Under the pieces are notes generated by a model. The model worked only from the letters and a program-made list of their open reading frames with translations. It ran no database searches and was not told the origin of the DNA. The position numbers were made by a program, and so were the translations under genes. This document shows positions 268 to 9,733 of a stretch of DNA of 10,000 bases, in pieces. Positions within the stretch are counted from its first letter, which is position 1. Each line of letters starts with the position of its first letter. The stretch is from the NCBI GenBank assembly GCA_008636095.1, contig VSJD01000338.1, forward strand, positions 1-10,000, given 5' to 3'. Origin of the DNA: Kiritimatiellota bacterium (GTDB taxonomy: Bacteria > Verrucomicrobiota > Kiritimatiellia > JAAZAB01).

Positions 268-309
268 TCATATGCCATCAACCATTTTCCATCAACCATT
301 AGTCATTTC
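268..309. repeat. Heptamer array, CCATNNN family (6 units), downstream of lepA
   Basis: Six consecutive 7-bp units fit the pattern NCATNNN on the plus strand, including CCATCAA twice and CCATTTT and CCATTAG once each. They fill much of the 85-bp gap between the lepA stop and the start of the next gene. The units match the array at 2246-2308 in sequence and orientation. No oppositely oriented partner is visible nearby. Confidence 0.75.
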
Positions 310-314
310 TGTAG

Positions 315-2141
315 TTAAGTATTCGATTTGAGTACCGAAACAAACGCTTCCTGCGGCACGTTCACCCGGCCGACCAGTTTCATGCGCTTCTTGCCTTCCT
401 TCTGGCGTTCCAGAAGCTTGCGCTTGCGGGAGATGTCGCCGCCATAGCATTTGGCCGTCACATCCTTGCGTAGAGCCCGGATGGTTTCACGGGCGATGAT
501 CGTCTTGCCAATCGCCGCCTGGACGGGGATGGTAAACAAATGCGACGGAATAACGTCCTTCAGCGCGGCGCACATCTGCCGGCCGCGGCTCTCTGCCTTG
601 GAACGGTGAATGAGACAGGAAAACGCGTCCACGGGTTCGCCGTTGAGCAAGATATCCAGGCGCACCAGGTCGCTGGCCATGTGCCCCTGGTGCTCATAAT
701 CCATGGAGGCATACCCGTGCGAAATACTTTTAAGAAAATCGTAGAAATTCACCAGGATTTCATTTAGCGGCATCGAACACGTTAACATGACCCGCCGCGT
801 GTCCAGCGAATCAGTTTTTTCCACCGTGCCGCGCCGGTCCATGATGAGCTTCATCACATCATTGATATGCTCGTTTTGGCAGATTATAAACGCGCGGATC
901 ATGGGCTCCTCGATATGGTCAATCCGCGTCAGGTCGGGCATGTGCACGGGGTTGTCAATCTTGAGCATCTCCCCGTTATTCAAGAACACATTATAGATTA
1001 CCGAAGGGTACGTGCTGATGATGTCCACGTCATGCTCGCGCCGCAGACGTTCCTGGACAATTTCCATGTGTAATAGGCCGAGAAACCCGCAGCGAAACCC
1101 GAATCCCAGCGCCACGGACGATTCCGGCTGGTAGGTGAACGCGCTGTCGTTCAGGCTGAGACGGTCCAGGCTGGATTTCAGCTTCTCAAGGTCGGACGTA
1201 TTGACCGGATAGACCCCGCTGAACACCATGGGCAGGACAAGCTTGAAACCCGGCAACGGATGCTTTGCCGGCCGCTCCTGGGTTGTAATGGTGTCACCGA
1301 TGAGAATATCGCGGGGCTCTTTGATCGTGCCCACGATGTACCCGACTTGACCAGCATCCAGAACGGCCACCGGCGTGGGTTTCGGACAGAACATGCCGAC
1401 TTCCTTGATCTCGCCGGTATAGCCGGTGCCCATGAACCGGATACGGTCCCCGGTTTTCAGCCGGCCGTCCTTGACGCGCACATACGGCATAACGCCGCGG
1501 TAAGCGTCATAAATGGAATCGAAAACCAGTACCCGTGTCCCGCCCTCCAAATCCGTCTTCGGCGGCGGCACCTGGTGCATGATCATTTCCATCAGGGCCG
1601 GTACCCCCTGCCCCGTCTTGGCGCTGATCAGGCTCCCTGCCTCCACCGAAAGCCCCAGGATTTCCTCGATTTGCCTGACCACGGCATCCACATCGGCCGT
1701 GGGCAAATCAATCTTGTTAATCACGGGAATGATGGTCAAATTAGCTTCCATGGCCAGATAGGCGTTGGCCACGGTCTGCGCTTCCACGCCCTGCGCGGCG
1801 TCCACGACGAGCAAGGCGCCATCGCAGGCCGCCATGCTCCGCGAGACTTCATACGTGAAATCAACATGGCCCGGCGTGTCCAGCAGGTTGAACTCGTACG
1901 TCTGGCCGTCGGCAGCCTGGTAATTCATGGTAACGGGGTGGCACTTGATGGTAATGCCCCGTTCGCGCTCAAGATCCATGCTGTCCAGAACCTGGTCGCG
2001 GAAATCACGTTCGTCAACGGTATGGGTCAACTGCAACATGCGGTCGGCCAGCGTGGATTTCCCGTGGTCAATGTGCGCGATGATGCAGAAATTGCGGATG
2101 CGCGAGAGCGAATCTGCAATGGTCAATGGTGAAGGGTTCAT
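315..2141 (-). CDS. lepA: Elongation factor 4 (LepA), ribosomal back-translocating GTPase
   Basis: Translational GTPase that binds ribosomes and acts during initiation/elongation, notably under ionic stress. Counting from the ATG at 2141, the product is 608 aa, close to the usual 600. The G motifs are AHIDHGKS (22-29), RGIT (61-64), DTPGH (88-92), NKID (142-145) and SAK. The C-terminus carries the LepA-specific basic tail RKRKLLERQKEGKKR. The frame is open further upstream to a TTG at 2210, but those 23 residues are a translated heptamer repeat. LepA proteins normally begin only a few residues before IRNF.IIAHIDHGKST. Even with the ATG at 2141, the first eight or so residues (MNPSPLTI) come from the array, and no Shine-Dalgarno sequence precedes it. 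A TTG at residue 6 is another possible start. The gene follows rpe and precedes probable lepB on the same strand. Family certain; exact start uncertain. Confidence 0.95.
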   Translation of the reverse strand: MNPSPLTIADSLSRIRNFCIIAHIDHGKSTLADRMLQLTHTVDERDFRDQVLDSMDLERERGITIKCHPVTMNYQAADGQTYEFNLLDTPGHVDFTYEVSRSMAACDGALLVVDAAQGVEAQTVANAYLAMEANLTIIPVINKIDLPTADVDAVVRQIEEILGLSVEAGSLISAKTGQGVPALMEMIMHQVPPPKTDLEGGTRVLVFDSIYDAYRGVMPYVRVKDGRLKTGDRIRFMGTGYTGEIKEVGMFCPKPTPVAVLDAGQVGYIVGTIKEPRDILIGDTITTQERPAKHPLPGFKLVLPMVFSGVYPVNTSDLEKLKSSLDRLSLNDSAFTYQPESSVALGFGFRCGFLGLLHMEIVQERLRREHDVDIISTYPSVIYNVFLNNGEMLKIDNPVHMPDLTRIDHIEEPMIRAFIICQNEHINDVMKLIMDRRGTVEKTDSLDTRRVMLTCSMPLNEILVNFYDFLKSISHGYASMDYEHQGHMASDLVRLDILLNGEPVDAFSCLIHRSKAESRGRQMCAALKDVIPSHLFTIPVQAAIGKTIIARETIRALRKDVTAKCYGGDISRKRKLLERQKEGKKRMKLVGRVNVPQEAFVSVLKSNT

Positions 2142-2216
2142 GGTCAATGAAAAATGGTTAATGGGGAATGGTTCATGGTTAATAGGGAATGGTTGATGGA
2201 AAATAGTCAATGGTTC
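2119..2216. repeat. Heptamer array, ATGGNNN family (14 units), overlapping the lepA start
   Basis: Fourteen contiguous 7-bp units lie in perfect register on the plus strand. The consensus is ATGGTNN with variants such as ATGGTTA, ATGGTCA, ATGGGGA and ATAGGGA. Because 7 is not a multiple of 3, translation gives a 21-nt, 7-residue periodicity (INHEPFP, INHFSLT, MNPSPLT on the minus strand). The array provides the lepA start codon and its first codons. It faces the array at 2246-2308 across a 29-bp spacer. Confidence 0.88.
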
Positions 2217-2245
2217 GGAACTTCAGGATAGGATCAAATCATAGT

Positions 2246-2308
2246 CCATCTCCCATCTGCCATTTACCATCTACCATTAACCATTCCCTATTTCCCATCT
2301 ACCATTCT
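2246..2308. repeat. Heptamer array, CCATNNN family (9 units), overlapping the rpe stop
   Basis: Nine contiguous 7-bp units in register on the plus strand (CCATCTC, CCATCTG, CCATTTA, CCATCTA, CCATTAA, CCATTCC, CTATTTC, CCATCTA, CCATTCT). This is the reverse complement of the family at 2119-2216, so the two could pair as a long imperfect hairpin with 2217-2245 as the loop. The last two units encode the final Glu-Trp-stop of rpe. Confidence 0.88.
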
Positions 2309-3015
2309 TTGGCACAGTCCTTGCCGAACACCGCGCGTGCTTTTTCCCGCATCTGCCGCAAATCCTGTGCCATGGTTTTCGATTTGAATAGCGCGTTTCC
2401 GGCCACCATTATATTGGCGCCGGCCTCCGCCACGCGCGTTACGGTATTCAGGTCAATGCCACCATCCACGGTGATGCCCAAAATAGCGTCCCCTCCCCTT
2501 CCTTGTCCTGGTTGCGTCCGCACGGCACGACGGATGGCGGCGATTTTGGGTAATACTTCCGGCATGAATTTCTGGCCGCCAAAGCCCGGATGGACGGTCA
2601 TGCACAGCACCTCGTCCACCTCGCCGAGGAATGGAAGTAGCGCCTCAAACGGCGTCTCGGGATTGATTGCCACTCCGGGAATTGCGCCCAGCGCACGAAT
2701 GTGACGGAGCGTGCCCAGGACATCGCACGAGGATTCAACGTGGATCGTCAGCGTCGTGGCGCCGGCCTTGATAAATACCTCTGCAAACTGGTCCGGCCGC
2801 GATAACATCAGGTGCACACTGAGCGGGATATTCAGGCACCGGCGCGCCATCTTGACCACATCTGGTCCCATGCTCAGGTTGGGCACAAAGTGCCCATCCA
2901 TGATATCCAGGTGCAGGGCATCGGCTCCGGCCGCCTGCGCCTTGAGCGCCGATTCTTCCAGCCGGCCGAAATCACCGGCCAATAATGACGGCCAAATATA
3001 AATCTTCGCGTCCAT
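2299..3015 (-). CDS. rpe: Ribulose-phosphate 3-epimerase
   Basis: Interconverts D-ribulose 5-phosphate and D-xylulose 5-phosphate in the pentose phosphate pathway (cytosolic TIM barrel with a divalent metal). The 238-aa product has the family's usual length. Visible motifs are PSLLAGDF (9-16), HLDIMDGHFVPN with metal ligands His35 and Asp37, His68 in SVHLM, VHPGFGGQKF (141-150) and VDGGI with Asp184. Asp37 and Asp184 are the expected acid-base pair. The frame stays open upstream to 3186, but that extension overlaps the end of the cmk-plsC gene and does not resemble Rpe. The ATG at 3015 (MDAKIYIWPSLL) aligns with family N-termini. No clear Shine-Dalgarno sequence is seen. The TAG stop lies in the heptamer array. 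The start is 71 bp downstream of the cmk-plsC stop, and the gene is probably co-transcribed with it. In the usual family motif the residue before PS is often Ala; here it is Trp. Confidence 0.95.
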   Translation of the reverse strand: MDAKIYIWPSLLAGDFGRLEESALKAQAAGADALHLDIMDGHFVPNLSMGPDVVKMARRCLNIPLSVHLMLSRPDQFAEVFIKAGATTLTIHVESSCDVLGTLRHIRALGAIPGVAINPETPFEALLPFLGEVDEVLCMTVHPGFGGQKFMPEVLPKIAAIRRAVRTQPGQGRGGDAILGITVDGGIDLNTVTRVAEAGANIMVAGNALFKSKTMAQDLRQMREKARAVFGKDCAKEW

Positions 3016-8376: not shown

Positions 8377-9405
8377 ATGATATCAGACGCATCCAACATT
8401 CATTCCCGGAAGGTAGCACAACGCCTGCCGCCCTGGATCCGGGTCCGCCTGCGGTCGGACGGTCATTTCTCCAAAGTGCACGCAACCCTCCGTGCGGGAG
8501 AACTGCACACGGTATGCGAAGGAGCGCACTGTCCAAATAAGCTGGAGTGTTATAACCGGGGCACGGCCACGGTTATGATCCTCGGCGACACGTGCACGCG
8601 TTGTTGCAAGTTTTGCGCCGTGCGCGGCGGGGTTCCACCCCACCCCGCCGATCCCCGCGAGCCCGAGCATGTGGTTACAATGGCTCGTACCCTGGGCTTG
8701 CGGCACGTGGTCGTGACGAGCGTCACGCGTGATGATTTGGACGATGGCGGCGCCGGGCTCTTTGCCGAGACCATTATTCAGCTCAAGCGCCTGAAGGGCG
8801 TCACGGTTGAAGTGCTGACGCCTGATTTTCAGGGTAAGCGCCATCTGTTGGAGACCGTCCTGGCGGCCGGACCGCATGTGTTCAACCATAATCTGGAAAC
8901 CGTCCGCCGGCTCCAGCCGGACGTGCGACCGCAGGCAGATTATGACCGCTCTCTCCAAGTACTGCGCATTGCGGCCGCGTGGCGGCCAAAGCTGATTGTA
9001 AAATCAGGCCTGATGGTCGGTCTGGGCGAAACCGATGACGAACTGATGGTGGCCATAGCTGATCTGCGCTCCGCCGACTGTCGGAGCCTGACGCTTGGCC
9101 AGTACCTGGCCCCCTCCCCGCGTCACTGGCCGGTAGCGCGCTTTGTCCCCCCCGAACAGTTTGAGCACTATCGCCGGTGCGCCCTGGCCATGGGGTTCCT
9201 GGCCGTGGCAGCGGGCCCCTTGGTACGTTCCTCTTACCAGGCGGACCAGCTCATGGCCGACCACCAGCAAAATTCCAAATTCCAAGCTCCAAATTCCAAG
9301 GAAAAACAATCAACGAAGTCAAATGACAAACGCAACCCGGTGGCGAGAGATTGGAGCACAATGCACGGTGCAAGTCGTCTGCGCAGCGGCAATACGGACT
9401 TGTGA
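8377..9405 (+). CDS. lipA: Lipoyl synthase, with an abnormal repeat-derived C-terminal tail
   Basis: Radical SAM enzyme that inserts two sulfurs into protein-bound octanoyl groups to make the lipoyl cofactor of 2-oxoacid dehydrogenases and the glycine cleavage system. From the ATG at 8377 the product is 342 aa. It has the LipA-specific auxiliary cluster ligands CEGAHCPNKLEC (Cys47, 52, 58), the radical SAM motif CTRCCKFC (Cys73, 77, 80) and the RSSY motif (284-287) whose Ser ligates the auxiliary cluster. The frame is open upstream to 8275, but that part overlaps the palindrome cluster and does not resemble LipA. The start MISDASNIHSRK precedes the conserved PPWIRVRL. A TTG at 8368 is an alternative, and neither start has a good Shine-Dalgarno sequence. 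LipA normally ends soon after RSSY. Here about 44 extra residues (from 299) are translated from a heptamer array and the following palindrome-rich DNA. No lipB is in the window. Confidence 0.95.
   Translation: MISDASNIHSRKVAQRLPPWIRVRLRSDGHFSKVHATLRAGELHTVCEGAHCPNKLECYNRGTATVMILGDTCTRCCKFCAVRGGVPPHPADPREPEHVVTMARTLGLRHVVVTSVTRDDLDDGGAGLFAETIIQLKRLKGVTVEVLTPDFQGKRHLLETVLAAGPHVFNHNLETVRRLQPDVRPQADYDRSLQVLRIAAAWRPKLIVKSGLMVGLGETDDELMVAIADLRSADCRSLTLGQYLAPSPRHWPVARFVPPEQFEHYRRCALAMGFLAVAAGPLVRSSYQADQLMADHQQNSKFQAPNSKEKQSTKSNDKRNPVARDWSTMHGASRLRSGNTDL
9269..9306. repeat. Heptamer array, TTCCAAA family, inside the lipA 3' end
   Basis: Four 7-bp units in register from 9273: TTCCAAA, TTCCAAG, CTCCAAA, TTCCAAG, flanked by A-rich sequence. 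They are translated as NSKFQAPNSKE in LipA. The inverted counterpart lies at 9705-9733. AAATTCC-type runs are familiar as intergenic repeats in uncultured and PVC-type genomes (recall, not searched). Confidence 0.75.
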
Positions 9406-9448
9406 CATCCTGACGGGAACAGGGGAATGGGCAGCATGATGGCGCAGG

Positions 9449-9607
9449 GCGAATTGCGGGTCCCGAGTCTGACGAGGGGTTTGAAAAGCAAGGCAAGTTT
9501 GGCTCAGATGCGCCAGCGCCGCGCGCAGCGCTATACCCGTGTATGCGCAAGCGCGGAAATGGCGTAGATGAGCCGAAATCGCCATGGCCTTTTCAAACGC
9601 AATTCGC
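9449..9607. repeat. 159-bp imperfect palindrome
   Basis: The outer arms GCGAATTGCG (9449-9458) and CGCAATTCGC (9598-9607) are perfect complements. Next in, TTTGAAAAG (9480-9488) pairs with CTTTTCAAA (9589-9597), leaving 9459-9479 as a one-sided bulge. Then GGCTCA (9501-9506) pairs with TGAGCC (9569-9574), and TGCGCCA (9509-9515) with TGGCGTA (9560-9566, one G-T pair). Alternating GC segments follow, then ATAC (9533-9536) and GTAT (9541-9544) around a CCGT loop. The arms match too consistently for chance. No T tract follows, so it is not a simple terminator. It could be a mobile palindromic repeat, a protein binding site or a structured RNA. Confidence 0.85.
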
Positions 9608-9704
9608 ACTGCTCTTGCCGATCACCGGCGATCAACGCGGTCTATAAGTGGCTAAATGCGGCCTTGGGTAATAAAAATCACACGCTATTTACGGAAGGAC
9701 CATA

Positions 9705-9733
9705 TTTTTTGGAATTTGGAATTTGGATTTTTC
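9705..9733. repeat. Heptamer array, TTGGAAT family, upstream of lpxL-like gene
   Basis: TTGGAAT, TTGGAAT, TTGGATT in register (9709-9729) with T-rich flanks. It is the reverse complement of the array at the lipA 3' end, so the two bracket the 159-bp palindrome as an outer inverted repeat about 460 bp across. Confidence 0.75.

Follow-up and report, generated by a model that had tools for sequence, protein, structure and literature searches.

Facing heptamer arrays between rpe and lepA of a Kiritimatiellota bacterium as probable arms of a gene-less IVS-type element

The junction between rpe and lepA in the 10,000-nucleotide stretch of Kiritimatiellota DNA that we analyzed (the window) is occupied by two facing arrays of degenerate 7-bp units, which probably represent both arms of a short IVS-type element that lacks a gene. 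In the family to which this element would belong, complete copies would consist of an IVP/S23 four-helix-bundle gene (PF05635) flanked by two arrays that are inverted relative to each other and built of degenerate units of 7 bp or, in some cases, 8 bp. Arrays with the word of the window are dispersed through the genome, occur as inverted pairs, and are present at some and absent from other orthologous sites of related genomes. Across the class, period-7 arrays are associated with IVP genes when compared with control loci, and the words of the arrays are correlated with the proteins that they flank.

The first arm of the element (2119..2216, plus strand) comprises 14 heptamer positions of the form ATGGNNN in one 7-bp register from 2119 to 2210, with exact ATGG cores at ten of them. 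After a loop of 29 bp (2217..2245), part of which recurs in the orthologous element of the relative G058, the second arm (2246..2308, plus strand) is inverted with respect to the first and comprises nine CCATNNN positions from 2246 to 2302, eight of them with exact cores. A first-pass annotation of the window had described the same 14 and nine units across 29 bp; the strict register it reported was confirmed, whereas the units are not all intact, as the core is degenerate in 5 of the 23. Identity over 100 bases at the element was 61 at a lag of 7, 62 at a lag of 14 and 66 at a lag of 21, while elsewhere in the window the maximum was 45 at lags of 2 to 29 (best four windows per lag).

Both arms contribute to the genes beside them. 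The genes lepA (elongation factor 4; 315..2141, minus strand) and rpe (ribulose-phosphate 3-epimerase; 2299..3015, minus strand), the latter upstream of lepA on the same strand, were each confirmed by Pfam. As the annotation had claimed, the best lepA start codon (ATG, 2139..2141, minus strand) lies within the first arm, with about seven of the following codons also array-derived, such that the N-terminus of the protein is array-encoded, and the rpe stop codon (TAG, 2299..2301, minus strand) lies within the second arm, which also supplies the last codons, GAA TGG. The nearest relatives of the window LepA among the named contigs found were Kiritimatiellia records with 69% and 67% identity. The array scan revealed a third, single-armed CCATNNN array of four units just past the lepA stop (275..299, plus strand), which is probably a remnant.

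The proposal that the arms can fold into a hairpin agreed with the predicted fold of the transcript strand from 2110 to 2312, which has an energy of -65.8 kcal/mol. For 200 shuffled sequences the energy was -45.9 +/- 4.1 (z -4.9), and none of them folded as well as the native strand. As in an IVS, the ends of the window copy are complementary and are predicted to fold into one stem. The copy is situated between rpe and lepA rather than within a 23S rRNA gene, and its 29-bp loop has no S23/IVP ORF. No Rfam match was found in the window at gathering thresholds.

Another part of the window, 9417-9632, belongs to a dispersed repeat with a length of about 215 bp. A query of 9300-9706 produced at least 41 matches in the genome that holds the window (a draft of 3.8 Mb in 357 contigs), and at least 11, 28 and 10 in the relatives G021, G045 and G058, respectively. 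The repeat is flanked by a facing heptamer pair of AATTCCA type (9270-9300 and 9706-9733), with its members about 400 bp apart, and a profile search of its contig found no PF05635 match.

A search for three phased units of the ATGG word (ATGGNNNATGGNNNATGG) produced 225 matches in the window's own genome and 1 with the reversed control, and a pattern for inverted pairs with a limited loop produced 48 matches per strand, equal to 21 elements by count, and none with its control. The matches listed, which are fewer than half of the 225, represent about 47 separate arrays. In 40 stretches taken around the listed ATGG sites, both arms had at least three units in 24, always in the order ATGG then CCAT, and one kind of arm alone passed in the other 16. 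The aligned units of 25 elements gave the consensus ATGGTYR. The copies are short, gene-less, dispersed and have inverted ends, as do MITEs. In the class survey, 38 of 57 genomes had at least one three-unit match, with a range of 0 to 225, although low counts mean little because the reversed control reaches 16 in single genomes. At 9 of the 25 printed ATGG sites (L226, L227, L229, L230, L240, L241, L245, L256 and L257) a GC-rich hairpin (CCCGATCCGCGCG...CGCGCGGATCGGG and variants) was seen by eye to directly adjoin the arrays.

ORF calling on 26 elements placed the stop of a flanking ORF inside 11 and a start inside 6, counts that are approximate because the crude calling missed the rpe of the window, whose longest ORF overlaps the next gene; one element, L230, lies within a short predicted ORF. 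These counts indicated that the supply of gene ends is common in the ATGG family, and the annotation's expectation of further arrays, in inverted pairs at gene ends, held in this genome. Because 7 is not divisible by 3, successive units fall in different reading frames, and TAATG and TGATG both occur within ATGGTYR arrays. Start and stop codons are thus available in all frames, which explains how an array can terminate one gene and initiate its neighbor.

Comparison of the rpe-lepA junction between relatives showed that the array is present in only some of them. The LepA proteins of G058, G021, G045 and G057 have 97%, 97%, 94% and 82% identity to that of the window, respectively. The junctions of G058 and G045 have ATGG arrays whose lengths are unlike those in the window, so that the predicted variation in array length was found, and in G021 the junction has a different facing pair, of TCAGAA type. 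None of these three relatives has a conserved non-periodic sequence at the junction. In G057 the two genes overlap by ATGA with no array, and no heptamer array was seen at the junction in that genome or in five more distant relatives examined, while G033 has an insert of another kind there. The empty or other-word junctions in relatives of the same genus indicated that the array of the window was inserted. Its insertion had consequences for the coding sequence of lepA: the protein begins MTDSLSRIRN in G021 and MIESLSRIRN in G058, from starts that are nearer to the gene than that of the window, whereas in the window genome and G045 the native start has been lost and an ATG of the array is used (MNPSPLTIADSLSRIRN in the window).

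To extend this comparison, the left flanks of 28 sites of the window's genome (23 of them ATGG-armed, including L117) were looked up in four genomes of the same genus, and 26 were comparable in at least one relative. For twelve of the sites, the orthologous position is empty in one or more relatives; the alignment for L265 is doubtful. Among 21 gene-less ATGG sites that could be compared, a script detected 6 at which a relative has a 7-bp array with a word other than ATGG; the words read at five of these six were AATTCCA-like, GTGTTCG, GTTCTTG, GCAGAAT with GTCGTCT, and ATCGGCA-like. Four IVP sites were also flagged with non-ATGG arrays in relatives, where the word of the window's genome is not ATGG either, and at L113 and L118 the word in G021 is unlike its counterpart. 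At L238 a gene that ends in WWIIIAA in G058 has acquired the ending WWIIIGNG from the element, in each case followed by the stop. By-eye comparison of the empty sites found no consistent target-site duplication; the flanks there are partly replaced, and differences of tens of bases are common. At one ATGG site, L229, the orthologous position in G045 (L333) has facing arrays of units of about 9 bp (CCACGGATA-like and its complement).

Known genome sequences suggested that such arrays accompany IVP genes, and this prompted a search for PF05635. The profile search identified 12 matches in the window's genome, 10 of them above the family cut-off, and none in any of 14 control genomes. Period-7 arrays, with differing words, were present within 1.5 kb of 9 of the 12. 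The three matches with no such array within that distance were L115, L121 and L122, the latter two being below the Pfam cut-off.

To determine how general this association is, we assembled 81 IVP loci of the class (the 12 above, 29 and a further 40), mostly higher-scoring matches, which are not all independent because some are orthologues or neighbors of each other. A period-7 array was detected in at least one 260-bp flank of 46 of the 81 loci, and in both flanks of 29. Arrays of period 7 or 8 were found at 59 and of period 8 at 14, while each other period from 4 to 15 was found at three at most, except for 14 (27 loci), which is the double of 7. The corresponding numbers for period 7 were 1 of 26 lepA loci, 4 of 800 random intervals from diverse bacteria, and 1 of 520 intervals inside lepA loci. 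Inverted arms scored above 24 at 67 of 80 IVP loci, compared to 28 of 800 random intervals, 1 of 26 lepA loci and 7 of 520 intervals inside lepA loci, and when the arms were compared with swapped arms, 66 of 79 IVP loci exceeded the 95th percentile and 41 the 99th. At a stricter threshold, 22 of 79 loci tested had no array of period 7 or 8. In six loci (L204, L218, L224, L381, L401 and L406) units of 8 bp take the place of 7-bp units. In several comparisons between IVP loci in different places, homology extended over the gene plus the sequence immediately beside it and ended about at the arrays (e.g., L112/L113, L205/L374 and L400/L402); other pairs in the set were orthologues whose flanks were homologous too.

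The connection between the gene-less ATGG copies and IVP genes comes from L117 (C239 of the window's genome), in which an IVP gene (PF05635, E 3.1e-13, and no other Pfam family) lies between ATGG and CCAT arrays like those of the gene-less copies of the same genome. G058 has a full orthologue of this locus, while G021 and G045 keep just a few units. It was the one ATGG-armed IVP element found, apart from that orthologue, compared to 24 two-armed copies of less than 200 bp among the 40 loci. A second informative site is L120, an IVP gene with AATTCCA arms that is full in G058, reduced to the 3' end of the gene and one arm in G021, represented by a small hairpin in G057, and empty in G045. These two sites are the basis for deriving gene-less copies from full ones. 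The L117 protein had 243 relatives in a database of proteins alone, without their DNA context; a sequence search of the PDB produced no match for it at E 0.01, and no relative was confirmed in viral contigs. The L113 protein matched PDB entries 2rld and 2gsc, of which 2gsc is Xanthomonas XCC0516.

The association was also seen beyond the class. In a phylum-wide draw of 17 further IVP loci (two of which, L435 and L436, were still from the class of the window), the best period was 7 in 13 and 8 in 2, with no threshold set. Plasmid records with an IVP match numbered 30, of which 10 were examined (nine from cyanobacteria and one from Azospirillum), and a period-7 or -8 array scored at least 0.71 in all of these but L449; the arrays of L450 and L457 are direct rather than facing. 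In two of the plasmids, from Anabaena sp. 90 (L456) and Pseudanabaena galeata (L457), an IVP gene with heptamer arrays is located between cas6 and cas4 of a CRISPR locus. The GxxExxY family (PF13366) was tried as an alternative owner of period-7 arrays and rejected, as none were found in the 260-bp flanks of the 27 loci, of 30 (L342-L371), that had full flanks. Inverted arms nonetheless scored above 24 at 24 of these 27 loci, compared to 28 of 800 random intervals, with a weak peak near 9 bp, and these genes perhaps belong to a parallel element family.

Word similarity rose with protein similarity among 44 period-7 loci (Mantel r 0.44, with none of 2000 permutations as high). Related proteins had related words across families of the class, as in L113, L225, L377 and L411, and in L201, L203, L206 and L373. 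This correlation may represent shared descent rather than recognition. L117, the locus of the ATGG lineage, had no near relative among the 81 IVP loci.

Within single elements, by contrast, the two arms showed no sign of correspondence in their variable bases. Over 25 elements, the variable triplets of the arms of one element matched no better than those of arms of different elements (p 0.98 end to end and 0.86 with register shifts; 0.87 and 0.58 when G-U pairing was allowed). The stem is thus only partly paired, and the data support neither copying by fold-back nor selection for perfect pairing of the stem. Selection for a fully paired stem was therefore rejected, and with it the idea that pairing of the variable bases has been selected. 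The arrays do look like the amplification and subsequent drift that the annotation had offered as one origin. What is kept in the ATGG arms is the word, with its consensus ATGGTYR.

We infer that the transcribed arms would pair as a stem and be cut by RNase III. The message would thereby be divided into separate pieces, so that an element inserted between two co-transcribed genes, as with rpe and lepA, would be tolerated. The IVP protein, which is Avd-like (Avd being the DGR accessory protein), may recognize the heptamer word of its element, and the L117 and L120 sites suggest that internal deletion would yield gene-less copies, which would subsequently drift as units are gained and lost. A more speculative extension, which we consider rather unlikely, is that the arrays act as address labels: each IVP lineage would read its own word, mirrored at the ends of the element, and the Avd-like IVP would direct the excised hairpin, as RNA or DNA, to further junctions between genes, in which case the bacterial heptamer excess would be largely the debris of one element superfamily.

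The simplest alternative would be that the arrays are plain simple-sequence repeats, produced by polymerase slippage at gene ends, with the inverted pairing and IVP neighbors being incidental. In most genomes of an earlier survey (cited in PMC4679880), heptanucleotides outnumbered the other classes of longer repeat, and both the differences in array length between relatives and the unmatched triplets of the two arms are consistent with slippage. However, slippage accounts poorly for one word recurring in about 47 separate arrays among the matches listed and in 21 inverted pairs, for sites that are empty or have another word in relatives, and for period-7 arrays at 46 of 81 IVP genes versus 4 of 800 random intervals, and we regard it as quite unlikely. 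We consider it very improbable that the hairpin is a selected regulatory feature of the rpe-lepA operon, such as an attenuator or processing site. Its fold is more stable than that of the shuffles (z -4.9) and an ATGG element is common to the junctions of the window's genome, G058 and G045, but it is absent from G057, replaced by another word in G021, repeated as the same structure at many unrelated junctions, and unmatched from arm to arm in its variable bases.

Two further alternatives concern what would move the elements. The arrays could be MITE- or REP-like hairpins moved in trans by a Y1 (HUH, RAYT-type) transposase with IVP as a passenger, which seems unlikely. Over 55 genomes, counts of IVP and Y1_Tnp were correlated (rho 0.53), and Y1 was present in 33 of the 34 genomes with at least five IVP matches, but this may reflect general mobile load and shared ancestry. 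Moreover, ATGG array counts were only weakly correlated with Y1 (rho 0.30), as they were with IVP itself (rho 0.31), and the printed ATGG sites showed no fixed head sequence, only the degenerate word. Alternatively, the Avd-like IVP might recruit a reverse transcriptase that copies the excised stem-loop RNA into new sites, consistent with the resemblance of PF05635 to the DGR protein Avd described in part of PMC10053308 and with the correlation of ATGG array counts with RVT_1 (rho 0.38). An RVT_1 match was absent in 14 of the 34 genomes with at least five IVP matches, most of these being drafts, and we consider the retro-element improbable. Overall, the genome counts did not show either enzyme to be an obligatory partner in the same genome. 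The reading of the arrays as arms of a gene-less IVS-type element is the one that we favor.

IVP/S23 genes, annotated as four helix bundle proteins, occur widely without a known function, and heptamer repeats have been reported as over-represented in bacterial genomes for no agreed reason. If the two are parts of one element family, these two questions can be tested jointly, and heptamer arrays become traceable as element debris, debris that rewrites gene ends, as in the new lepA start and new rpe stop described here.

The STRR of cyanobacteria are heptanucleotide tandem repeats that are not known to occur as facing pairs around a gene. The arrays of the window resemble them in being tandem heptanucleotides, and to that extent the likening of the arrays to STRR in the first-pass annotation was apt. 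They differ from STRR in their word, ATGGTYR, and in coming from a genome whose nearest named LepA relatives are Kiritimatiellia. The analogy also proved too narrow, as the arrays are better described as the ends of an IVP-carrying family with many words.

Other heptamer repeats also share features seen here. The GGGAATC repeats of Xanthomonas (degenerate GGGANTN) are dispersed, mostly intergenic, and variable in length, with 70 and 75 convergent (inverted) heptamer pairs in two species (PMC4692102), so that they are like the present arrays in degeneracy, dispersal, inverted pairing and length variation. Unlike here, they were treated as G-quadruplex repeats and were reported generally to have no link to mobile elements; neither “S23” nor “XCC0516” was found in its main text. 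In P6b of the Nostoc tRNA-Leu intron, degenerate heptanucleotides, whose copy number varies, likewise form a hairpin by pairing, but they lie inside an intron stem and the portions drawn upon mention no IVP gene (PMC3488679). The TAACTGA repeats of Beggiatoaceae are similarly dispersed, mostly intergenic and often just upstream of start codons; by contrast they are direct repeats, with one inverted case, and were proposed to be binding sites for a translational regulator (PMC4679880, in part).

The closest known system is the IVS in the 23S rRNA gene of Coxiella, described in part of PMC4990558. It has an IVP/S23 gene between complementary arms, a stem that is cut by RNase III in vitro, and GACAGAT heptamers beside the ORF whose number varies between strains. 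The family described here is similar in its IVP gene, complementary arms and heptameric repeats. It differs in that the window element lies between protein genes, many words are used across the family, and most of the ATGG copies fetched are too short for an IVP gene. The behavior of the stem would be best modeled on that of the Coxiella IVS. Searches of open-licence literature showed no account of inverted heptamer arms joined to IVP genes in general. The parts are of known kinds; their combination, in which IVP genes go with facing 7-bp arrays of many different words and with gene-less copies where genes meet, appears to be new relative to that literature.
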